A stretch of DNA of 54,185 nucleotides from Acidovorax sp. (GTDB taxonomy: Bacteria; Pseudomonadota; Gammaproteobacteria; Burkholderiales; Burkholderiaceae_C). Every line of letters begins with the position of its first letter. Position 1 is the stretch's first letter. A program made the position numbers and the translations under genes. The notes under the pieces are model-generated. The model ran no database searches, was not told where the DNA came from, and saw only the letters and a program-made list of their open reading frames with translations. The DNA is taken from the NCBI RefSeq assembly GCF_027492855.1, contig NZ_JAPUDY010000082.1, positions 1-54,185 on the forward strand, given 5' to 3'. Shown here piece by piece: positions 13,228 to 53,909 of this stretch.

Positions 13228-14751
13228 ATGAAAATTCAGTTTCACAACGTTGCCATCGTGGGCACCGGCGCCATGGGCCGGGGCATTGCTCAAATCGCTG
13301 CCCAGGCTGGCAGCCAGGTTTTTCTGCTGGATGCCAACCCCGGCGCCGCCGATGCGGCCAAGGTAGCACTCCAGGAGCAATGGGCCAAGCTGGCTGCCAA
13401 AGGTCGAATTGATTCAGATCAAGAAAATATCCTGGCGGCGCGGCTGCATCCCGTGCAAGCCGTGGCCGACCTGGCCGCTTGCGACCTGGTGATCGAAGCC
13501 ATCGTCGAGCGGCTGGATGTGAAAAAAGCGCTGTTCGCCGAGCTGGAAGCCGTGGTGCGCCCGGATGCCGTGCTGGCCACCAACACCTCGTCCCTGTCCG
13601 TCACCGCCATCGGCGCAAGCCTGCAGCACCCCGAGCGCCTGGCGGGCTTCCACTTCTTCAACCCCGTGCCGCTCATGAAGGTGGTCGAGGTGATTGCAGG
13701 CCTCAAGACCGACCCCGCCGTTGGCGCCAGGCTGGCAGCCTACGCCAAGGAAATGGGCCACACCCCCGTGCAGGCCCAAGACACACCCGGCTTCATCGTC
13801 AACCATGCGGGGCGTGGCTTTGGCACCGAGGCCCTGCGTATCGTGGGCGAAGGCGTGGCCGATTTCGCCACCATCGACCGCATCCTGCGCGACCAGGTGG
13901 GCTTCAAGCTCGGGCCCTTCGAGTTGATGGACCTCACGGCGCTCGATGTATCGCACCCCGTCATGGAGTCCATCTACCGCCAGTTCTACGACGAGCCGCG
14001 CTTTCGCCCCAGTGTGATCACGGCGCAACGCCTGGCCGGCGGCATGGTGGGCAAAAAGGTGGGCGAGGGCTTTTACCGCTATGTGGACGGCGTGGCACAG
14101 GTGCCCGCCGAACCGCCTGTGCCCGTGGTTAACGAAATCCCCCCCGTTTGGGTGTCGCCCCGCGCGGCACGGCGCGCCGAGCTGTACCAGTTGCTCAAGG
14201 ACCTGGGCGCCACCATCGAGACGGGGCAATCGCCCTCGCCCCACGCCATCACGCTGGTGGCCCCGCTGGGCTTTGACGTGACCACGGTGGCCGTGGTCGA
14301 GCGCCTGGACCCGGCCCGCACCATCGGCATCGACATGCTGATCGACGATGTCGCCACCAAGCGCCGCGTGCTGGCCACCAACCCCGCGACACGCGTAGAC
14401 ATCCGCAATGCAGCGCATGCGTTGTTTGCACGCGACGGCAAGGCCGTGAGCGTGATCCGCGACAGCGGTGGCTTTGTCACACAACGCGTGGTAGCCACCA
14501 TCGTCAACATCGCAGCCGACATCTGCCAGCAAGGCATCTGCTCGCCCAAGGACCTGGAAACCGCCGTGACCCTGGGCCTGGGCTATCCGCTGGGCCCGCT
14601 GGCCATGGGCGACCGCTGGGGCCCCACCAACATCCTCGAAGTGCTGTTCAACATGCAGACCGTGTACGGCGACACCCGCTACCGCCCCAGCCCGTGGTTG
14701 CGCAGGCGCGGCGCCATTGGCCTGAGCCTGACGCATGTAGAAGAAAACTGA
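13228..14751 (+). CDS. 3-hydroxyacyl-CoA dehydrogenase
   Basis: An NAD-dependent beta-oxidation enzyme oxidising 3-hydroxyacyl-CoA to 3-ketoacyl-CoA. The 507-residue protein has the Rossmann motif VAIVGTGAMGRGIAQIAAQAG near residue 8, catalytic-region GFHFFNPVPLMKVVEVIAG, the NTSSLSVT block, and DTPGFIVNHAGR. It contains two C-terminal HCDH domains (GFKLGPFELMDLTALDV and GYPLGPLAMGDRWGPTN), as in the PaaH type. No crotonase domain is fused; the hydratase is the next gene, 21 bases downstream. The ATG at 13228 starts the conserved part. Confidence 0.92.
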   Translation: MKIQFHNVAIVGTGAMGRGIAQIAAQAGSQVFLLDANPGAADAAKVALQEQWAKLAAKGRIDSDQENILAARLHPVQAVADLAACDLVIEAIVERLDVKKALFAELEAVVRPDAVLATNTSSLSVTAIGASLQHPERLAGFHFFNPVPLMKVVEVIAGLKTDPAVGARLAAYAKEMGHTPVQAQDTPGFIVNHAGRGFGTEALRIVGEGVADFATIDRILRDQVGFKLGPFELMDLTALDVSHPVMESIYRQFYDEPRFRPSVITAQRLAGGMVGKKVGEGFYRYVDGVAQVPAEPPVPVVNEIPPVWVSPRAARRAELYQLLKDLGATIETGQSPSPHAITLVAPLGFDVTTVAVVERLDPARTIGIDMLIDDVATKRRVLATNPATRVDIRNAAHALFARDGKAVSVIRDSGGFVTQRVVATIVNIAADICQQGICSPKDLETAVTLGLGYPLGPLAMGDRWGPTNILEVLFNMQTVYGDTRYRPSPWLRRRGAIGLSLTHVEEN

Positions 14752-34136: not shown

Positions 34137-34302
34137 CTTTTCAGAATTCTTCGCCATGGGCGGCTACGCCGTCTACGTCTGGGGCAGCTTCGGGGCCACG
34201 GCCCTGGTGATGGGGGTGGAGTCACTATTGATCCACATCAAGCGCAAGGAAATGCGACGAAACCTTCGCGCCGAACTCCAACCCAACGGCCTCCAACCAT
34301 GA
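34123..34302 (+). CDS. ccmD: Small heme exporter protein CcmD
   Basis: A 59-residue membrane protein that stabilises the CcmC-CcmE complex and is easily missed because it is so short. It reads [20 protein letters not shown] with one hydrophobic segment ([19 protein letters not shown]) and a basic tail ([13 protein letters not shown]). The start overlaps the end of ccmC and its stop overlaps the ccmE ATG by four bases. The MGGYAxYVWxS pattern is the family hallmark. Confidence 0.92.
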
Positions 34303-43339: not shown

Positions 43340-44567
43340 GATCAGCCAATACATGCGAGAGCTTGCCGCTGCCGAGGCAAGCGGCACCTACCCCAGCGTT
43401 CGCGACCGGAAACCCAAAGGGCCGGTGGTGATCTGGAACCTGATCCGCCGCTGCAACCTCACCTGCAAGCACTGCTACGCGCTCTCGGCCGACCACGACT
43501 ATGAGGGCGAGTTGTCCACACAGGAGGTGTTCGGCGTGATGGATGACCTGCGCGCCTATGGCGTGCCGGTGCTCGTCCTCTCGGGCGGCGAGCCGCTGAT
43601 GCGCCCGGACCTGTTCGACATCGCCGCGCGCGCACGCGATCTCGGCTTCTACACCGGCCTGTCCACCAACGGCACGCTCATCGACGAGCCCATGGCCGAG
43701 CGCATCGCGGCCATGGGGTTCGAGTACGTGGGCATCAGCCTGGATGGCCTGCGGGACACTCATGACCGCTTCCGGCGCATGCAGGGCGCCTTCGACAAGA
43801 GCTTGGCCGCCCTGCGCATGCTGCGAGCGCGTGGCGTGAAGGTGGGCATGCGCTTCACCATGACGGCGCTGAACGCGCACGACCTGCCAGCGCTGCTGCA
43901 ATTGATGCGCGAAGAGCAGGTCGACAAGTTCTACTTCTCGCACCTGAACTACGCGGGCCGGGGCAACATCCACCGCGGCAAGGACGCGCAGTTCCAGGCC
44001 ACGCGCGATGCGCTGGACATGTTGTTCGAGCGCGCCTGGCAAGCCGCGCTGGACGGACAGCCCGAGGAGTACGTCACCGGCAACAACGATGCCGACGGCC
44101 CCTACCTGCTGCAATGGGTGCAGGCACGTCTGCCGCGCTGGGCCGCCCACATCGCGCAGCGCCTCGCTGCATGGGGCGGCAATGCCAGCGGCCTGAACGT
44201 GGCCAACATCGACAACCAGGGCCTGGTGCACCCCGATACCATGTGGTGGCACCACACGATTGGCGACGTGCGCCAGCGCCCGTTCTCCAGCATCTGGAGC
44301 GACACCTCCGACCCGCTCATGGCGGGCCTCAAGCACCAGCCGCGCCCGGTGCAGGGCCGCTGCGCCGAATGCCGCTACCTGGCCCTGTGCGGCGGCAACA
44401 CGCGCGTGCGTGCCCAGCAACTCACCGGCAACGCCTGGGCCGAAGACCCCGGCTGCTACCTGGAGGACGACGAGATCGGCCTGGCGCACCCCGCCCTCGC
44501 TGCAGGCACCCACGCACCCGCGCGCCAGCGCATCACCATTCCCATCCGCGAGCAGATCCATGCCTGA
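43332..44567 (+). CDS. nirJ: Heme d1 biosynthesis radical SAM protein NirJ
   Basis: NirJ carries out oxidative steps of side-chain removal on didecarboxysiroheme. The 411-residue protein has the radical SAM motif CNLTCKHC (Cys41, Cys45, Cys48), the GGEPLMRPDLF segment and a C-terminal SPASM-like Cys cluster (GRCAECRYLALCGGN…GCYLED) for a second FeS cluster. The start ATG overlaps nirH by 8 bases. Confidence 0.95.
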   Translation: MFRISQYMRELAAAEASGTYPSVRDRKPKGPVVIWNLIRRCNLTCKHCYALSADHDYEGELSTQEVFGVMDDLRAYGVPVLVLSGGEPLMRPDLFDIAARARDLGFYTGLSTNGTLIDEPMAERIAAMGFEYVGISLDGLRDTHDRFRRMQGAFDKSLAALRMLRARGVKVGMRFTMTALNAHDLPALLQLMREEQVDKFYFSHLNYAGRGNIHRGKDAQFQATRDALDMLFERAWQAALDGQPEEYVTGNNDADGPYLLQWVQARLPRWAAHIAQRLAAWGGNASGLNVANIDNQGLVHPDTMWWHHTIGDVRQRPFSSIWSDTSDPLMAGLKHQPRPVQGRCAECRYLALCGGNTRVRAQQLTGNAWAEDPGCYLEDDEIGLAHPALAAGTHAPARQRITIPIREQIHA

Positions 44568-46179
44568 CAACCGCCCTCCCTCTTCCTGGCGCGCGCTGCT
44601 GGCCAACGCGGGCCGCGCGGCCCTGGCCGCCGGGCTGTGCTGGATGGGCTACGACCTGGCACAAGCCCAGGCCGCCACGCCCACAGCCTCTCCCGCCGCC
44701 CTGTATGCCACCCACTGCGCCAGTTGCCACGGCGCGCAGCGCACCGGCGGCATGGGCCCCGCACTGCTGGCCGAAAGCCTGAGCAGGCTGCCTGCGGCCC
44801 AGGCCACGAAGGTGATTGCCCAGGGCCGCCCCGCCACACAAATGCCTGCGTTCGAAACGCTGCTGGCAGCCGCGGACATAGAGGCCTTGGCGGCCTACAT
44901 CCGCACCCCCGTGGTGCCCGCCCCGCGCTGGACGGATGCCGACATCCGCGCCTCGCGCACGTTTCACACCACGCCCGACCGGACCGGACCAGTGTGGAAG
45001 GCCGACCCCATGAACCTGTTCGTGGTGGTAGAAGGCGGCGACCACCACGTGAGCCTGCTCGACGGCGACCGCTTCGAGGTCATCGCCCGCTTCGCCAGCC
45101 GCTTCGCCCTGCACGGCGGCCCCAAGTTCACGCCCGACGGGCGTTATGTGTACTTTGGCTCGCGCGACGGCTGGATCACCAAATACGACCTGTGGAGCCT
45201 CGCCGTGGTGGCCGAGGTGCGCGCCGGGCTGAACATGCGCAACGTGGCCGTGAGCGCCGATGGCCGCTGGGTGATGGCCGCCAACTACCTGCCCCACACG
45301 CTGGCGCTGTTCGACAGCGATCTGCAACTGGTGCGCACCTACGATGCGCGCACGCTCGACGGCAAGGCCAGCTCGCGCGTGTCGGCCGTGTACGACGCAG
45401 CGCCGCGCCAGAGCTTCGTGGTGGCGCTCAAGGACATTGCCGAGATCTGGGAAATATCCTACGACCCGAAGGCCGCTCCCATCCACGACGGCCCGGCGCA
45501 CGAAGACAAGGTGGGCGAGGCCACCACCACGCCCAGCTACCAGGGCGTGCGCCGCACGCCGCTGTCCGAGCCGCTGGACGACTTCTTCTTCGACCAGAGT
45601 TACCGCCATGTGCTGGGGGCCACGCGCCCCAAGTCCGGCCAGGGCGACGCTACAGCCCAGGTGGTCAACCTTGACCAGCGCCGCAAGATCGCCGACCTGC
45701 CCATCGCGGGCATGCCGCACCTGGGCTCGGGCATCACCTTCGCGTGGAACGGCACCACGGTCATGGCCTCGCCCAACCTCAAGGACGGCAGCATCGATGT
45801 GGTGGACATGAAGACGTGGAAATCGGTGGCCAGCATCCCCACCCCAGGCCCTGGCTTCTTCATGCGCAGCCACGAGAAAACGCCCTACGCCTGGACGGAC
45901 TCCATGATGAGCCCCACCGCCAAGGACACGCTCACACTCATCGACAAGGCCACCCTGAAACCCGTGGCCAGCCTGCGCGAGCCGGGCAAGACGCTGGCCC
46001 ACATCGAGTTCACCCGCGACGGCCGCTACGCCCTGGCCAGCGTGTGGGAGATGGACGGCGCCCTCATCGTGTACAACGCCACGACCCTCAAGGAGGTCAA
46101 GCGCCTGCCCATGAGCAAGCCCGTAGGCAAATACAACGTGTGGAACAAGATCACGCGCTCGGAGGGCACCTCGCATTGA
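44560..46179 (+). CDS. nirN: Dihydro-heme d1 dehydrogenase NirN
   Basis: NirN completes heme d1 by introducing the acrylate double bond. The 539-residue protein has an N-terminal signal-like segment, a heme c site CASCH at 53-57, and a d1-type propeller (FVVVEGGDHHVSLLDGDRFEV, FTPDGRYVYFGSRDGWITKYDLW, GKYNVWNKITRSEG). It resembles NirS but is distinguished by gene position and lower similarity to the NirS ending. It overlaps nirJ by 8 bases and norE by four. Confidence 0.9.
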   Translation: MPDNRPPSSWRALLANAGRAALAAGLCWMGYDLAQAQAATPTASPAALYATHCASCHGAQRTGGMGPALLAESLSRLPAAQATKVIAQGRPATQMPAFETLLAAADIEALAAYIRTPVVPAPRWTDADIRASRTFHTTPDRTGPVWKADPMNLFVVVEGGDHHVSLLDGDRFEVIARFASRFALHGGPKFTPDGRYVYFGSRDGWITKYDLWSLAVVAEVRAGLNMRNVAVSADGRWVMAANYLPHTLALFDSDLQLVRTYDARTLDGKASSRVSAVYDAAPRQSFVVALKDIAEIWEISYDPKAAPIHDGPAHEDKVGEATTTPSYQGVRRTPLSEPLDDFFFDQSYRHVLGATRPKSGQGDATAQVVNLDQRRKIADLPIAGMPHLGSGITFAWNGTTVMASPNLKDGSIDVVDMKTWKSVASIPTPGPGFFMRSHEKTPYAWTDSMMSPTAKDTLTLIDKATLKPVASLREPGKTLAHIEFTRDGRYALASVWEMDGALIVYNATTLKEVKRLPMSKPVGKYNVWNKITRSEGTSH

Positions 46180-46751
46180 GCAGCAACGCAAAGCCAGCGC
46201 CGCGCCTGGCGGGCGACCTGGTGGTCTGGCTGCTGGTGCTGGCCGAACTGCTCACCTTCGGCATCCTGTTTGCCGCATTTGCGGTCACCCGCGTGCGCGA
46301 GGCCTCGCTGTTCGCTGCCGGGCAGGCCACGCTGGAGCTGTCCACGGGCGCCATTAACACCGTGCTGCTGGTGTCGGCCAGTTGGTGCGCAGCGCGCGCC
46401 GTGCATGCCGTGCGCGCCAACGCGTCGCGGCAGGGTGCGCGCTGGCTGCTGGGGGCGCTGGCCTGCGGCTGCGGCTTTTTGCTGCTCAAGAGCCTGGAAT
46501 ACCTGCACAAGTGGCACGAAGGCATCGACGTGGCCGAGAACAGCTTTTACCTGCTGTACGTGATGCTCACGGGCTTTCACTTCCTGCATGCCGCCGTGGG
46601 CTGCATCATCTTCGCCGTGCTGTGGCAGCCCACACGGCGCGGTGCCTATGGCCCCGGCAACTGCCACGCGCTGGAGACCGGTGCGGTCTTCTGGCACATG
46701 GTGGACCTGTTGTGGATGGTCCTCTTCCCCCTGGTGTACGTGCTGCGTTGA
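46176..46751 (+). CDS. norE: NorE-like cytochrome c oxidase subunit III family protein
   Basis: A 191-residue membrane protein with about five transmembrane segments (VVWLLVLAELLTFGILFAAFAV, ELSTGAINTVLLVSASW, WLLGALACGCGFLLLKS, LLYVMLTGFHFLHAAVGCIIFAVLW, VFWHMVDLLWMVLFPLVYVL). The COX3-type LTGFHFLHAAVG and ETGAVFWHMVDLLW blocks are clear. NorE is an auxiliary factor of nitric oxide reductase activity. The start is TTG 46176 with ggagg 10 bases before it; no ATG fits. Confidence 0.88.
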   Translation: MSSNAKPAPRLAGDLVVWLLVLAELLTFGILFAAFAVTRVREASLFAAGQATLELSTGAINTVLLVSASWCAARAVHAVRANASRQGARWLLGALACGCGFLLLKSLEYLHKWHEGIDVAENSFYLLYVMLTGFHFLHAAVGCIIFAVLWQPTRRGAYGPGNCHALETGAVFWHMVDLLWMVLFPLVYVLR

Positions 46752-46756
46752 GATGA

Positions 46757-46905
46757 AACGACACCCCCCTGTGGCGCTTCGCGCCTTCCCCCCGCTCTCG
46801 CGCTACGCGCGGGCAGGGGGACGACGCCCTCGCTGCGGGGCGGCCCTTGCTTGGCGTCCCTCGCTTTGGCCGTGCCAGTTTCATGGGCGGTGAGTGGCGC
46901 ACAGC
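46757..46905. repeat. GC-rich structured intergenic element between norE and norF
   Basis: This 150-base stretch holds no gene. It contains cccccctgtggcgcttcgcg, a cttcgcgccttcccccc run and cgcgctacgcgcg and gacgacgccctcgctgcggg pieces that fold into GC hairpins. From memory, near-identical sequences recur between genes in Comamonadaceae; only one copy is in this window, so the repeat status is unproven here. Confidence 0.45.
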
Positions 46906-46921
46906 GCCGTGGATAACTGAC

Positions 46922-47194
46922 ATGAGAAAAAAACTGCTGCATATCGACTGGATCTGGCTGGCCCTGCTGGCAGCCACCGCCATCACCTGGTGGGTGGGCG
47001 AGCACCCCGGCCCCACGGGCATCGGCCGGGGCGCGGCCTTGGCGGTGCTGGGCCTGGCGCTGGCCAAGGGCGTGCTCATCGTGCTCGACTACATGGAGCT
47101 GCGCCATGCACCCGCGCTGTGGCGGCGGCTGCTGCTGGGCTGGCTCGGCCTCACCCTGCTCATCGTCCTGGTGGCAACACTATGGCCTCGCTAG
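46922..47194 (+). CDS. norF: NorF-like small membrane protein (COX4 family)
   Basis: A 90-residue protein with three hydrophobic segments (WIWLALLAATAITWWVG, GAALAVLGLALAKGVLIVLDYMEL, LLLGWLGLTLLIVLVATLW). The placement between norE and norC and the LAKGVLIVLDYMELRHAP block match NorF / prokaryotic cytochrome c oxidase subunit IV-like proteins. NorE and NorF are needed for full NO reductase activity. I start it at ATG 46922; the upstream open frame runs through the GC-rich element and is rejected. Confidence 0.82.
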   Translation: MRKKLLHIDWIWLALLAATAITWWVGEHPGPTGIGRGAALAVLGLALAKGVLIVLDYMELRHAPALWRRLLLGWLGLTLLIVLVATLWPR

Positions 47195-47371: not shown

Positions 47372-47806
47372 ATGAGCCAGGTACAAAGCGGATTTACCAA
47401 GCAGATGGCCCGCAACATGTTCTATGGGGGCACGGTGTTTTTCGCCTTGCTGTTCGCCGCCATAGTGTTCGACAGCGAGCGCCGCATTCCCGAGCGCTCC
47501 AACGCCCAGGCCATCACACCGGCGGTGGTAGCGGGTAAAAAAATCTGGGAGACGCGCAACTGCATCGGCTGCCACACGCTGCTGGGCGAAGGCGCGTACT
47601 TCGCGCCCGAACTGGGCAACGTCTACAAGCGCCGCGGTGGCGACTTCATCAAGGTCTGGATGAAGGCCCAGCCCACCGGCGCACCCCACCGCCGCCAGAT
47701 GCCGCAGTTCAACCTCAGCGACCAGCAGCTCAATGACCTCGTCGAGTTCCTCAAGTGGACGGGCGAGATCAACACTGAAAAGTGGCCACCGAACATCGAA
47801 GGCTGA
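47372..47806 (+). CDS. norC: Nitric oxide reductase subunit C (NorC)
   Basis: NorC is the membrane-anchored cytochrome c subunit that feeds electrons to NorB. The 144-residue protein has an N-terminal anchor (MFYGGTVFFALLFAAIVFD) and one heme site CIGCHTLLGEGAYFAPEL at 64-68. The ending GEINTEKWPPN is typical. It follows a strong Shine-Dalgarno (aaggagg) and the perfect Dnr palindrome. Confidence 0.96.
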   Translation: MSQVQSGFTKQMARNMFYGGTVFFALLFAAIVFDSERRIPERSNAQAITPAVVAGKKIWETRNCIGCHTLLGEGAYFAPELGNVYKRRGGDFIKVWMKAQPTGAPHRRQMPQFNLSDQQLNDLVEFLKWTGEINTEKWPPNIEG

Positions 47807-49273
<1,467 letters not shown>

Positions 49274-49295: not shown

Positions 49296-50102
49296 ATGGA
49301 CCACAGTGAACAGCAGCGCATCGCCCAGGCGGCGCTGCCTTTCTATGCAGAACAAGGCGGCGAGGCCGCCTTGTTCGAAAGCGCCTGGCGCCAGCGCCTG
49401 CCGCTGCTCATCAAGGGCCCCACGGGCTGTGGCAAGACGCGTTTTGTGGAGCACATGGCAGCCCGCCTGCAGCGCCCACTCATCACAGTGAGCTGCCACG
49501 ACGACCTCTCGGCCGCCGACCTGGTGGGCCGCCACCTGCTGGGCCACGACGGCACCGTGTGGGCCGATGGCCCCCTGGCACGCGCCGTGCGCCAAGGCGC
49601 CATCTGCTACCTGGACGAAGTGGTGGAGGCCCGCAAGGACACCACCGTGGTGCTGCACCCGCTGGCCGACGACCGGCGCGTGCTGCCCATCGAGCGCACG
49701 GGCGAACTGCTCGTAGCGCCCCCCGAATTCATGCTGGTGATTTCCTACAACCCCGGCTACCAGAGCCTGCTCAAAAGCCTCAAGCCCAGCACGCGCCAGC
49801 GCTTCGTGGCGCTCAACCTGGGCTACCCGGCCGCTGCGGTGGAGCAGACCATTTTGCAAACCGAAGCCGGTGCCAGCCCCGCGCTGGCCGCCACCCTGGT
49901 GCGCCTGGGCGCGGCACTGCGCAAGCTCACCGACCACGACCTCGAAGAAGTGGCCAGCACCCGCCTGCTGGTGATGGCCGCACGCCTGGCCGCAGCGGGC
50001 GTGCCGCTGGCCCAGGCCTGCCGCGCCGCCATCGTCGATGCCCTCACGGACGACGCCGACACCGCCGCCGCGCTGGACGAGGTGATCTGCGCGCTCCTGT
50101 AG
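49296..50102 (+). CDS. norQ: NorQ, MoxR-like AAA+ ATPase
   Basis: NorQ with NorD remodels apo-NorB to insert its non-heme iron. The 268-residue protein has Walker A GPTGCGKT at residues 41-48, Walker B AICYLDEVVEA and the sensor region FMLVISYNPGYQS. The RFVALNLGYP segment is family-typical. The start ATG is 22 bases after norB. Confidence 0.94.
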   Translation: MDHSEQQRIAQAALPFYAEQGGEAALFESAWRQRLPLLIKGPTGCGKTRFVEHMAARLQRPLITVSCHDDLSAADLVGRHLLGHDGTVWADGPLARAVRQGAICYLDEVVEARKDTTVVLHPLADDRRVLPIERTGELLVAPPEFMLVISYNPGYQSLLKSLKPSTRQRFVALNLGYPAAAVEQTILQTEAGASPALAATLVRLGAALRKLTDHDLEEVASTRLLVMAARLAAAGVPLAQACRAAIVDALTDDADTAAALDEVICALL

Positions 50103-50111
50103 CGCTTCTTC

Positions 50112-51131
50112 ATGCAACGCCAGCGCCGCGCCTTCCAGATCGGTTTTTTTGCGCTGTTTTTGTGCGCGCCCGCGCTCAACCTGCTGCGCTTTGACGTGAC
50201 CGAGGTACAACTGTGGGTGCTGGGCCAGCGCTGGAGCCTGGGGCTGGATGCGTTTCGCCAGGGGCTGATTACACCGACCGAGATGGCGCTGCAACTGGTG
50301 CTGCGCGCCTTTGTGCCTGCCATTGCGCTCGTCGGCCTGTTCCTGGCCGTGGCCTGGCGCTACGGACGGCTGTACTGCGGCTGGCTCTGCCCACATTTCT
50401 CGCTGGTAGAGCTGCTCAACCACGTGCTGCAAAAAGCCTGCGGCCGCCTGTCGCTGTGGAACCGCAAGCCCACGCCCAAAAACGGCCTCACGCCCGACCG
50501 CCGCTGGTGGCCGGTGTTCGTGCTGCTGTGCCTGGTGATGGGTTTTGTGTGGGCCATCACCCTGCTCACCTACCTGCTGCCCCCGGCGGACGTGTGGGGG
50601 CGGCTGCTGCGCGGCGAATCGACACTGGGGCAAGCGCAGTTTTTGGCCGTTTTCACTGCCGTGTTCACGGCCGAATTTCTGTTTGCGCGCCACCTGTTTT
50701 GCCGCTTTGGCTGCGCGGTGGGTTTGTTCCAAAGCCTGGTGTGGATGGCCAATCCGCGCGGGCGCGTGGTGGGTTTTGCACGCGACGGCAAACGCCCCGT
50801 GCCGACAACCGCCAGCGGCCTGCAGGCCGCCCACCCCTCGCACTGCCGCAGTTGCGACGCACCCCACGGCAACGCCTGCGACCGCGCCTGCCCCATGCAT
50901 CTGCCGCCACGCAACTTCAAGCGGCGCAAGTTCTCGTGTGTGCAATGCGGGCTGTGCGTGCAGGCCTGTGACACATCTCAATCGGCGCAGCAGCGCGAGC
51001 CGCTGCTGCAATGGCGCATCGGCGTGGACGCGCTGCGTGAATCGCTGCATGCGCCGCAGCCAGACCCCGCAGCACCATCCCGCCGCCCGGCGGCCATCGC
51101 CAGCGCCATGCCCACCCCCCAGGAAAGCTGA
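50112..51131 (+). CDS. NapH/NosR-like membrane iron-sulfur protein between norQ and norD
   Basis: A 339-residue membrane protein with four or five transmembrane segments. Two CxxxC-type motifs, LYCGWLCPHFSL (Cys89, Cys93) and LFCRFGCAVGLFQS (Cys197, Cys201), are as in NapH, CcoG/RdxA and NosR. Two 4Fe-4S motifs follow in the C-terminal part: CRSCDAPHGNACDRACP (245-261) and CVQCGLCVQAC (276-286). It starts 9 bases after norQ and ends one base before norD, so it belongs to the nor operon. A role in electron transfer to NO reductase or in its metal loading is inference. I have no name for it. Confidence 0.85.
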   Translation: MQRQRRAFQIGFFALFLCAPALNLLRFDVTEVQLWVLGQRWSLGLDAFRQGLITPTEMALQLVLRAFVPAIALVGLFLAVAWRYGRLYCGWLCPHFSLVELLNHVLQKACGRLSLWNRKPTPKNGLTPDRRWWPVFVLLCLVMGFVWAITLLTYLLPPADVWGRLLRGESTLGQAQFLAVFTAVFTAEFLFARHLFCRFGCAVGLFQSLVWMANPRGRVVGFARDGKRPVPTTASGLQAAHPSHCRSCDAPHGNACDRACPMHLPPRNFKRRKFSCVQCGLCVQACDTSQSAQQREPLLQWRIGVDALRESLHAPQPDPAAPSRRPAAIASAMPTPQES

Positions 51132-51132
51132 C

Positions 51133-53022
51133 ATGGAAGAGTGGATCGGCCAGCAATGGCACCGCCTCATCACCCGCTGGGCCGCCCAGGGCCACCCCGA
51201 GGCGGCCGTGACGCTCGAAGAGGTGCGCAAGCCCCTGGGCCTGCTGTTTCGCTGCGGCGGCGGGCCAGCGGCCATGCGCATTGCCCCCGTGGCCGAGCGC
51301 AGGCACGGCGGGCCGCGCGGCTGGGTGCAGCGCGTGGCGGGCGCTGGCACGCACGCTGCGCTGCCCGAGCTCCAGCCCGACGTACTGGCCCTGCCCGCAT
51401 CGCTGGCCGTTTTTCCCGAGCGCGCGCTCAACCGCGACCTGTACCTGTGGCTCGCGACCGTGGGCTCGCAATGGAACACACCCCATGCCGCCGAATACGC
51501 AGGCACCGGCTGGCTGGCGCACAACCTGGCCGCCGCCCGCGCGGCGCGCCTGGCCTTCCCTGGCCTGGCGCCCGCGCACGACCGGCTGCGCGCGGCCCAG
51601 CTTGCACTGCGCCCGCCGCTGGCACAGCTGCGCGGCCCCGCCGCCGAGGCCGAGGCCTGGGTGCAGCGCGCGCTGCGTGGCGAGCTGGACCACATGCAGG
51701 ACGATGCCCCTTGGCCGCCCCTGGCGCCGTCGCAGGTCGCACCCGTGTGGCTGTGGCTGGATGGCGGCCAGCCCCAGCTCCCCGCCACTGCCCGCAGCGC
51801 CCAGCCTACCGAGCCGCCCGAAGGCCGCGAGGCCGCAGCCCCCACGCCCGGCGACGACGCACGCCGCCGCGCCCAGCGCGTGCGCGATGACCGCCACGCC
51901 GCGCCGCTGATGCTGTTCTTCCGCGCCGAATCCATCCTCTCGTGGGGCGAATTCACCAAGGTGCAGCGTGCCGACGACGACAGCGACGACGGCAATGCCC
52001 TGGACGCCGCCCGCGACATGGACGTGCTGGCCATCGCCGAAGACCCCGGCAACGCGCGCCGCCTGGCATCGCGCGTGCGTTTCGACCTGGACCTTCCCAG
52101 CGCCAGCGCCGACGACATGCCCCTGGGCCCCGGCGAGCCCCAGCCCGAGTGGGACTGGAAAGCAGGCCTGCTGCGCCCCGCCCACTGCGCCGTGCAGCGC
52201 ATGGTGGCGCGCGAGACCACACCCTTCACGCCCGACGCCCGGCTGCGCGCCACTGCGCGGCAGGTGCGCAGGCGGCTGGAAGTGCTGCGCGCAGCCCCCC
52301 TGCGCGCCCACGCCCAGCCTGACGGCGACGAGCTGGACCTGGATGCCTGGGTGCGCCACGCCACCGATGCCGCTGCATGGCACAGCGAATCGCCCGCCGT
52401 GTGGCAGCGCCGCGTGCGCGCCGAGCGCAACCTGGCCACGCTGCTGCTGGCGGATCTGTCGCTGTCCACCGACGCGCATGTGGGCGGCGCGGGCCAGCCC
52501 ATGCGCGTGATCGACGTGATCCGGGACGCGCTCTACGTGTTTGGCGAGGCCCTGGCTGCCGGGGGCGACACCTTCGAGATGCTGGGCTTCAGCTCGGTGC
52601 GGCGGCAGAACGTGCGCATCCAGCACCTCAAGGGCTTTGACGAAGCCTGGGCCGTGCCCACACGCGCACGCATCAACGCCATCAAACCCGGCTACTACAC
52701 CCGCATGGGCGCCGCCATCCGCCACGCCACGGCGCGGCTGGCCGCACGGCCCGAGCGCCAGCGCCTCTTGCTGCTGCTGACCGACGGCAAGCCCAACGAC
52801 CTGGACGTGTACGAAGGCCGCTACGGCCTGGAGGACACCCGCCACGCCGTGCAGGCCGCGCGCGCTCAGGGCCTTACGCCTTTTGCCGTGACCATCGACG
52901 ACGCGGGCCACGACTATCTGCCCCACCTGTTCGGCCAACAAGGCTATGCCTTGGTGCACCGCCCGCGCGACCTGGCCCAGCGGCTGGCGGCGGTGTACGC
53001 ACAGATCACACGGCAGGGCTAG
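51133..53022 (+). CDS. norD: NorD, VWA-domain activation protein of NO reductase
   Basis: A 629-residue protein working with NorQ in NorB activation. The N-terminal half is Ala/Pro/Arg-rich helical. The C-terminal von Willebrand A domain has the MIDAS motif LLADLSLSTD near residue 440 and the following conserved LLTDGKPNDLDVYEGRYG region. The start ATG lies one base after the upstream iron-sulfur gene. A long Pro/Arg-rich middle (TEPPEGREAAAPTPGDDARRR) is typical. Confidence 0.93.
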   Translation: MEEWIGQQWHRLITRWAAQGHPEAAVTLEEVRKPLGLLFRCGGGPAAMRIAPVAERRHGGPRGWVQRVAGAGTHAALPELQPDVLALPASLAVFPERALNRDLYLWLATVGSQWNTPHAAEYAGTGWLAHNLAAARAARLAFPGLAPAHDRLRAAQLALRPPLAQLRGPAAEAEAWVQRALRGELDHMQDDAPWPPLAPSQVAPVWLWLDGGQPQLPATARSAQPTEPPEGREAAAPTPGDDARRRAQRVRDDRHAAPLMLFFRAESILSWGEFTKVQRADDDSDDGNALDAARDMDVLAIAEDPGNARRLASRVRFDLDLPSASADDMPLGPGEPQPEWDWKAGLLRPAHCAVQRMVARETTPFTPDARLRATARQVRRRLEVLRAAPLRAHAQPDGDELDLDAWVRHATDAAAWHSESPAVWQRRVRAERNLATLLLADLSLSTDAHVGGAGQPMRVIDVIRDALYVFGEALAAGGDTFEMLGFSSVRRQNVRIQHLKGFDEAWAVPTRARINAIKPGYYTRMGAAIRHATARLAARPERQRLLLLLTDGKPNDLDVYEGRYGLEDTRHAVQAARAQGLTPFAVTIDDAGHDYLPHLFGQQGYALVHRPRDLAQRLAAVYAQITRQG

Positions 53023-53165: not shown

Positions 53166-53909
53166 ATGGACATCCGGCAATTTGACATTCCGCGCTACCT
53201 ATCGGCCCTGCCCCTGTTTCAGGAGTCAACCCCCGATGAATTGGAGCGACTGGCCCAGGGTTGCCGCCTGCGCCGTTTCGCGCGGGGCGACAGCGTTTTT
53301 CGCGTGGGCACACCTTGCGAAGAGTTCCACGTCACGGTGCTCGGCCAGGTCAAGCTCTTCGCGCTGTCGCCTGCGGGCCAGGAGAAGGTGATCGAGCTCG
53401 TGGGCCCCGGCAGCAGCTTTGCCGAGGCGCTGATGTTCACCGGCAAGCCCTACATCATCAACGCCCAGGCCCTGGCCGACACCTTGCTGCTGAGCGTGGA
53501 CAAGGCCACCGTCGAGCGCGAAATCCAGGCCGACCCCAAATTCGCCATGCGCATGCTGGCAGGCATCTCGCGGCGGCTGCACGGCCTGGTGCATGACGTG
53601 CAGACCTACACCCTGCACAGCGGCATGCAGCGCGTTATCGGCTACCTGCTGCGCGACCTGCCCGAGGACTCCAGCGATGCCGCAGCCATCGCCCTGGCCT
53701 GCGCTGGCTGCGGCGAGCCGCAAGCCCCCGGCGGCCTGAACGTGACACTGCCGGTGAGCAAAGCCACCATTGCCTCGCGCCTGTCGCTCACGCCCGAATA
53801 TTTCTCGCGTGTGCTGCACGAGCTGGAGGAAGCCGGGCTGATTCATATGGACAAGCGCGACATCCACATCCCCGACGCGGTGCGGCTCGCTGGGCACACG
53901 GTGGGATGA
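53166..53909 (+). CDS. dnr: Dnr/NnrR-type Crp/Fnr regulator of denitrification
   Basis: A 247-residue Crp/Fnr protein. The N-terminal sensor barrel ([54 protein letters not shown]) lacks the FNR four-Cys cluster and is of the NO-responsive Dnr type. The recognition helix reads [15 protein letters not shown], with the E-x-x-S-R pattern that reads TTGA half-sites. That fits the palindromes before norC, nirE/nirC, nirS and itself. A small Cys-rich insert ([10 protein letters not shown]) between the dimer helix and HTH is unusual. Confidence 0.9.

Follow-up and report, generated by a model that had tools for sequence, protein, structure and literature searches.

norX, a polyferredoxin membrane protein gene between norQ and norD, is associated with one NorB type and may serve nitric oxide reductase maturation

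What does an additional iron-sulfur membrane protein contribute to a nitric oxide reductase (NOR) operon? The question is raised by a gene in an Acidovorax sp. contig stretch of 54,185 nucleotides, which was analysed as a whole and is referred to here as the window. This gene, provisionally named norX (50112..51131, + strand), encodes a polyferredoxin membrane protein of 339 amino acids. The cluster around it runs in the order nirJ, a cytochrome c/d1-domain gene, norE, norF, norC, norB, norQ, norX, norD and a dnr-like gene. It comprises, on the + strand, the norE-like COX3 gene (46188..46751, start codon unsettled), the norF-like COX4_pro gene (46847..47194), norC for the cytochrome c subunit (47372..47806, Pfam domain match), norB for the cNOR catalytic subunit, typed A here (47822..49273; COX1, 240 bits), norQ for a MoxR-type AAA+ ATPase (49296..50102; CbbQ_C 96.8 bits, AAA_5 124.6 bits), norD for a VWA protein (51133..53022; VWA 29.2 bits) and the gene of a Crp/Fnr-type, dnr-like regulator (53166..53909). 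As the initial annotation had described, norX fits tightly between its neighbours, with 9 nt from the norQ stop at 50102 and 1 nt to the norD start at 51133; its frame spans 342 codons from stop to stop and has no in-frame start codon further upstream. The protein encoded between nirJ and norE (44560-46179) carries cytochrome c and cytochrome d1 domains and may be NirN-like or of another kind. A search for TTGATNNNNATCAA palindromes, presumably of Fnr/Anr type, with up to one mismatch gave none near norC; exact copies lie at 13409-13422 and 34228-34241.

The two membrane CxxxC motifs and two 4Fe-4S motifs already noticed in the single sequence are present throughout the family. In an alignment of 95 rows, which include the window's own copy, five duplicates and one contig-cut row, C89, C93, C197 and C201 occur in 100% and the eight ferredoxin cysteines in 99% of rows. 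The first membrane motif, C89-x3-C93-P-H95, is encoded at 50376..50396 (+), and the second, H194-LF-C197-x3-C201, at 50691..50714 (+); the latter lacks the proline of CX3CP, unlike the compared relatives. The ferredoxin domain (Cys 245-286; 50844..50969, +) holds the 4Fe-4S motifs C245/248/256/260 and C276/279/282/286, as indicated by cysteine conservation and by Fer4_18 and Fer4_8 matches just under the cut-off, and the spacing within the first of these motifs differs among family members. NorX belongs to the Pfam family Fer4_5 (PF12801), scoring 36.8 bits, above the cut-off of 22. Both His95 and His194 are invariant in a second alignment (A2, 67 rows), and the membrane motifs CPHF and RHxFC were found in 122/122 norX rows (115 distinct). 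The corresponding places are Gln and Glu in 9/9 CcoG rows; in six NapH rows, NosR and YccM, His never fills the first place but does fill the second in YccM and in 1/6 NapH rows.

Four transmembrane helices are predicted for NorX, at about residues 10-27 (50139..50192, +; hydropathy, with an AF2 helix at 2-22) and, from both hydropathy and AF2, at about residues 57-84 (50280..50363, +), 132-155 (50505..50576, +) and 172-191 (50625..50684, +). Averaged over the 95 rows, the hydrophobic segments are centred at 16, 71, 144 and 186; a fifth stretch, centred at 204 after the second CX3C, is in our judgement a surface helix. The same family averages give 3.0 Lys/Arg against 0 acidic residues for the N terminus, 7.3 against 2.9 for loop 2 and 18.2 against 10.4 for the C terminus, whereas loop 1 is not positive (1.8 against 4.2). 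Charge distribution thus predicts that the N terminus, loop 2 and the C terminus are cytoplasmic; in the four-helix topology predicted on this basis both termini face the cytoplasm, and the conserved cysteines lie towards the same side. The predicted side of the Fe-S domain is less sure because an excerpt of PMC3475470 places the NapH clusters in a periplasmic domain. The AF2 model is of middling quality (pLDDT 74.8), and a fold search with it returned no useful match.

Paired membrane cysteines in 95/95 rows would suit a thiol-disulfide reductase acting on a NOR assembly factor through its CX3C motifs, which the initial annotation had considered. We regard this as very improbable. The predicted topology puts the motifs at the cytoplasmic face, a reducing environment, and the conserved cysteines of NorQ, NorD, NorB and NorC are much alike with and without norX, NorD C352 least so (98% with norX against 15/21 without); in this comparison of Cys and His positions in the four proteins none was confined to norX genomes and no clear partner cysteine emerged. 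Neither the fold search nor the Cys/His comparison of the Nor proteins thus gave a structure or partner signal for NorX.

The distribution of norX is narrower than that of NOR. We called norX at E <= 1e-30 with alignment A1, or at E <= 1e-50 in a search of 60 relatives, where weaker matches were CcoG-like, and grouped NorB by bit score into our own types A (at least 603, together with G484, whose norB is split over two contigs), B (480-546) and a remainder of about 370 or less; Paracoccus NorB we take to be type B. The initial annotation had named as speaking against its proposal that close relatives mostly lack the gene in their nor operons; this is not what was found. Among 36 genomes of the window's genus, norX occurs in 13 of the 14 with norB and in none of the 22 without it, the sole exception (G003) having a contig that ends inside norQ. 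Of the 60 relatives, 18 have type-A norB and 15 of these have norX. Wider samples, some genomes being common to both, covered 200 genomes of the order and 397 of the phylum, with up to 11 and up to 5 scored candidates per genome, respectively, so that a distant norX could escape. In the order sample norX accompanies type A in 21/36 genomes, type B in 0/4, weaker NorB-like matches in 0/8 and no norB match in 1/152; in this last genome (G562) norX lies at the end of a contig that also carries norQ and norE. The phylum sample gave 13/24, 0/27, 0/10 and 0/336 for the same four classes. The contrasts of 21/36 type-A genomes with 1/164 others (Fisher, 8e-18) and of 13/24 with 0/373 (3e-18) have overstated p-values, as the genomes are related. 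norX goes with one of the two NorB types, type A. Its absence from the 27 type-B genomes (seven type-B loci were read in all) agrees with the earlier statement that classical nor operons have no such gene.

Within type A, norX is missing from 15/36 genomes of the order sample and 11/24 of the phylum sample, one of the 11 (G081) being contig-cut after norQ. The X-less type-A loci that we read have norQ directly before norD, a Pseudomonas-like layout, or norQD elsewhere; all five genomes of one family (f33) with type-A norB are without norX, and their layout looks Pseudomonas-like. Since about half of the sampled type-A genomes do without it, norX is not generally needed. On a NorB tree of 63 rows the presence or absence of norX takes 10 changes, and the gene therefore appears optional and often lost or moved.

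Where norX is present, its position is strongly conserved. The order norQ-norX-norD on one strand was found in 80/80 named loci, which are the best 80 of 542 confirmed stretches and therefore near relatives. It recurs in 14/15 loci of the 60-relative search (own copy included), 18/20 further loci of the order sample, 10/12 further loci of the phylum sample and 1/3 plasmid loci, two genomes (G049 and G059) each being counted in two locus sets; the three misses in the 60-relative and order sets are contig-cut loci. In three genomes norCB lies apart from a norQ-norX-norD unit, 30 kb away (G478), on another contig (G457) or on the opposite strand (G495). Deviating arrangements are norB-norX-norD with norQ on the other strand (G216), norX ahead of norQ (G321), norB-norX-norE (Amphritea) and norX followed by nnrS near norCB, with no norQ or norD within 7 kb (Thiothrix); in L212-L216 norX and norD are separated by further genes, spanning as much as about 7 kb. 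The neighbourhood of norX with norQ and norD is more than chance. As to shared presence, norD accompanies norX in 22/22 genomes of the order sample (in G562 as a fragment), but it is also found in the 15 X-less type-A genomes, and its presence in all 36 type-A genomes means that the 22/22 proves little.

To which family does the protein belong? Among NCBIfam models the window copy scores highest with CcoG (TIGR02745), reaching 73.5 bits where the cut-off is 316.7; NapH models give 27 bits (TIGR02163, cut-off 213) and 22.3 bits (NF007013, cut-off 234), and the NosR model, 680 positions long, does not match the 339 residues at E <= 0.01. The CcoG match stops at model position 283 of 435, the C-terminal Ig-like domain is missing, and NorX ends soon after its ferredoxin domain. 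Both the CcoG and the NapH models match every one of the 25 A1 members, six of which also match NosR weakly; hhalign gave 3e-20 against CcoG (seven rows) and 5.6e-16 against NapH (six rows). Among distant copies, L123 scores 56 bits with NapH and 38 with CcoG, L191 59 and 56, and L192 43 and 50. In a tree of 61 rows the norX (44, including two genes entered twice), CcoG (nine) and NapH (six) sequences are each separated from the rest by a branch with good support (100/99, 100/99 and 99/96), while the join of norX with CcoG is weak (93/59) and the branches are long. Judged by its sequence, norX forms a branch of its own, the third next to those of NapH and CcoG, and is neither NapH nor NosR. 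The earlier label NapH/NosR-like is right as to the general kind of Fe-S membrane protein, which includes CcoG; it does not hold as an identity, and although 'NapH-like' is not wrong, CcoG appears about as near or nearer.

Two CX3C motifs, two 4Fe-4S motifs and the membrane core are common to NorX and CcoG/FixG/RdxA, and CcoG is likewise an accessory gene of an enzyme of the haem-copper group. NorX differs from it in having no Ig-like part, His for Gln/Glu by the CX3C motifs, a second motif without Pro and a clade of its own. We rejected CcoG as its identity on the score under cut-off, the lack of the Ig-like domain and the presence, in the loci read, of nor-gene neighbours instead of a cbb3 oxidase cluster. 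NapH, too, combines CX3C motifs in a membrane core with two 4Fe-4S motifs, but NapH and norX are separate genes in a Sphaerotilus plasmid record, and this identity was rejected on scores under both cut-offs and the lack of a NapG partner in the window operon. E. coli K-12 YccM is a short relative that also lacks the Ig-like domain, according to an excerpt of PMC7558416. Like NorX it has His before the second CX3C; it differs in adjoining tor genes, in its best NCBIfam match (NapH, 93.5 bits) and in its long branch outside the norX clade. NosR has the Fer4_5 core in common with NorX and was rejected as its identity because a protein of 339 amino acids has no NosR-model match over its length; the genome's own NosR-like protein, itself under cut-off (593.8 bits against 1000), has 873 amino acids and falls outside the norX clade.

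CcoG being the best-matching model, NorX might be a CcoG-like cupric reductase that stands in the nor operon by chance, which is improbable in the extreme. The same genome has a true CcoG elsewhere (510.1 bits), the cofactors of cNOR are haems and iron according to an excerpt of PMC13036017, and norX adjoins a nor gene in 33/33 norX genomes of the order and phylum samples. Kinship to NapH and the higher NapH than CcoG scores of L123 and L191 could instead point to a quinol-linked route feeding electrons to NOR, as NapH feeds Nap, and norX adjoins norB in Amphritea and G216. This link, also raised in the initial annotation, is disfavoured, and we consider it decidedly unlikely: norC is present in 20/20 norX loci that hold norB, the norC-to-norD interval of the window is filled by norC, norB, norQ, norX and norD with no room for a NapG-like gene, and the Fe-S domain is predicted to be cytoplasmic.

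Of the three roles put forward at the outset, electron delivery for FeB iron fares best, though it is unproven. Our preferred reading, which we advance tentatively and as somewhat short of an even chance, is that NorX is a cNOR maturation factor working with NorQD and making or keeping Fe(II) for the FeB site of NorB. As to electron flow, substrate and step of action, we infer the following: NorX would act beside NorQ and NorD at the cytoplasmic face of the membrane, where a cytoplasmic donor would pass electrons to its two 4Fe-4S clusters, and these to sites in the membrane made up of the two CX3C motifs, His95 and His194. These sites would reduce Fe(III), for example from ferritin, or hold iron as Fe(II), which could enter the FeB site while NorQD keeps NorB open. 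By analogy, NorX would be for FeB of NorB what CcoG is for CuB of cbb3 oxidase. We favour such an Fe(II) factor because norX is placed between norQ and norD, even in the three units apart from norCB, because its occurrence is tied to type-A NorB, because it is kin to an assembly factor in the same haem-copper group, because ferritin or hemerythrin genes lie in the norX region of G454, G492 and G549, and because its predicted cytoplasmic side is the one on which NorD presumably contacts NorB (excerpt of PMC9976466).

Operon placement and predicted topology would equally suit electron transfer from NorX to NorB itself (haem b3/FeB), at assembly or after NO damage, as a reductive conditioning or repair with no free iron involved. 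The gene nnrS, which has a role in NO stress, lies 3' of norX in Thiothrix and fits this as well. There is no direct sign of contact between NorX and NorB, and in G478, G457 and G495 norX belongs to the norQ-norD unit and not to the norCB unit; we therefore regard such conditioning as unlikely.

Iron-related genes occur among the neighbours of norX. In G454 norX is followed by a ferritin gene (120.8 bits) before norD, and its X-less congener G492 has a small membrane protein and ferritin (121.8 bits) between norQ and norD. These ferritin-family, bacterioferritin-like genes inside norQ-norD (L159:9001-9465, L184:4194-4655) belong to one genus only; tblastn with the G492 ferritin over the collected loci, many of them short, matched only L137, L159, L184 and L223, of which L184 and L223 are one place. 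A hemerythrin-domain gene lies between norX and norD in G549 (L216:6755-7207), and in G216 a ferritin-like gene is found 1.2 kb before norC, with an opposite-strand ORF in between. Ferritin genes in the norQ-norD interval fit iron supply in a suggestive, not a statistical, way. A more specific version, in which norX, with ferritin in one lineage, forms a dedicated iron-reduction and supply module, an Fe(II) source for NorQD and iron counterpart of CcoG, is in our estimation doubtful. The ferritin neighbours could also speak for NorX as an iron donor rather than a reductase, whose CX3C/His sites bind Fe(II) and pass it to NorB while the clusters are structural or sensing; the universal CPHF and RHxFC motifs and the restriction of His95 to NorX among the proteins compared agree with this. 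We hold it to be quite unlikely, given that the second His is common to YccM and one NapH row, and we know of no iron-carrying member of the NapH/CcoG group.

Several observations speak against NorX as an Fe(II) factor, the X-less type-A genomes being the largest weakness, as many organisms insert FeB without norX. According to excerpts of PMC9976466, norCBQDEF suffice to obtain active P. denitrificans NOR in E. coli. CcoG, as reported in an excerpt of PMC7558416, reduces Cu(II) and not Fe(III) in vitro; according to the same source CcoN falls without CcoG, which is needed for full cbb3 oxidase. The ferritin genes inside norQ-norD are limited to one genus and that of G216 is not adjacent, gene orders deviate in Thiothrix, Amphritea, G216 and G321, and the Nor proteins compared have no X-specific Cys or His. 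Nor was a fold search with the middling AF2 model of help. We conjecture that norX may count only under scarce Fe(II) or high NO stress.

The NorQD work leaves open whether the Fe2+ of FeB comes from free cytosolic Fe2+ or from iron chaperones or ferritin (excerpt of PMC9976466), and a conserved electron-transfer protein encoded between norQ and norD in numerous denitrifiers gives this question a gene. NorB belongs to the haem-copper group (excerpt of PMC13036017). A further suggestion from norX is that CcoG-type metal-reducing helpers may act on iron sites in this group and not on copper sites alone. Recognition of norX would aid the annotation of denitrifying, N2O-producing bacteria. In line with its initial description as an undescribed gene, three plasmid records name norX only '4Fe-4S binding protein'; no description of it stood in the excerpts consulted of open-licence papers (PMC13036017, PMC9976466, PMC7558416, PMC10256816, PMC2907700, PMC3475470, PMC12883736), and the six nor cluster genes listed in an excerpt of a 2026 paper (PMC13036017) do not include it. 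In the D. aromatica genome paper, NorD is 582097 and NorQ 582100, with two numbers between, and one of these two is, at a guess, norX.

The norQ-norD region also contains a second recurrent gene. A small hydrophobic protein of about 123-140 amino acids, for which no Pfam family scores above cut-off, is repeatedly encoded 3' of norQ, where it sits before norX or, if norX is absent, before norD or ferritin; examples are L142:7656-8051, L147:8654-9073, L185:5963-6340, L159:8472-8840 and L163:3838-4224, and it was matched in 26 norX loci, some counted twice. In one genome (G055; L152, L162, L227) a block of norQ, a small membrane protein and norD lies about 1.1 Mb from norCB, and G554 looks similar, judged from its norB and norD places.
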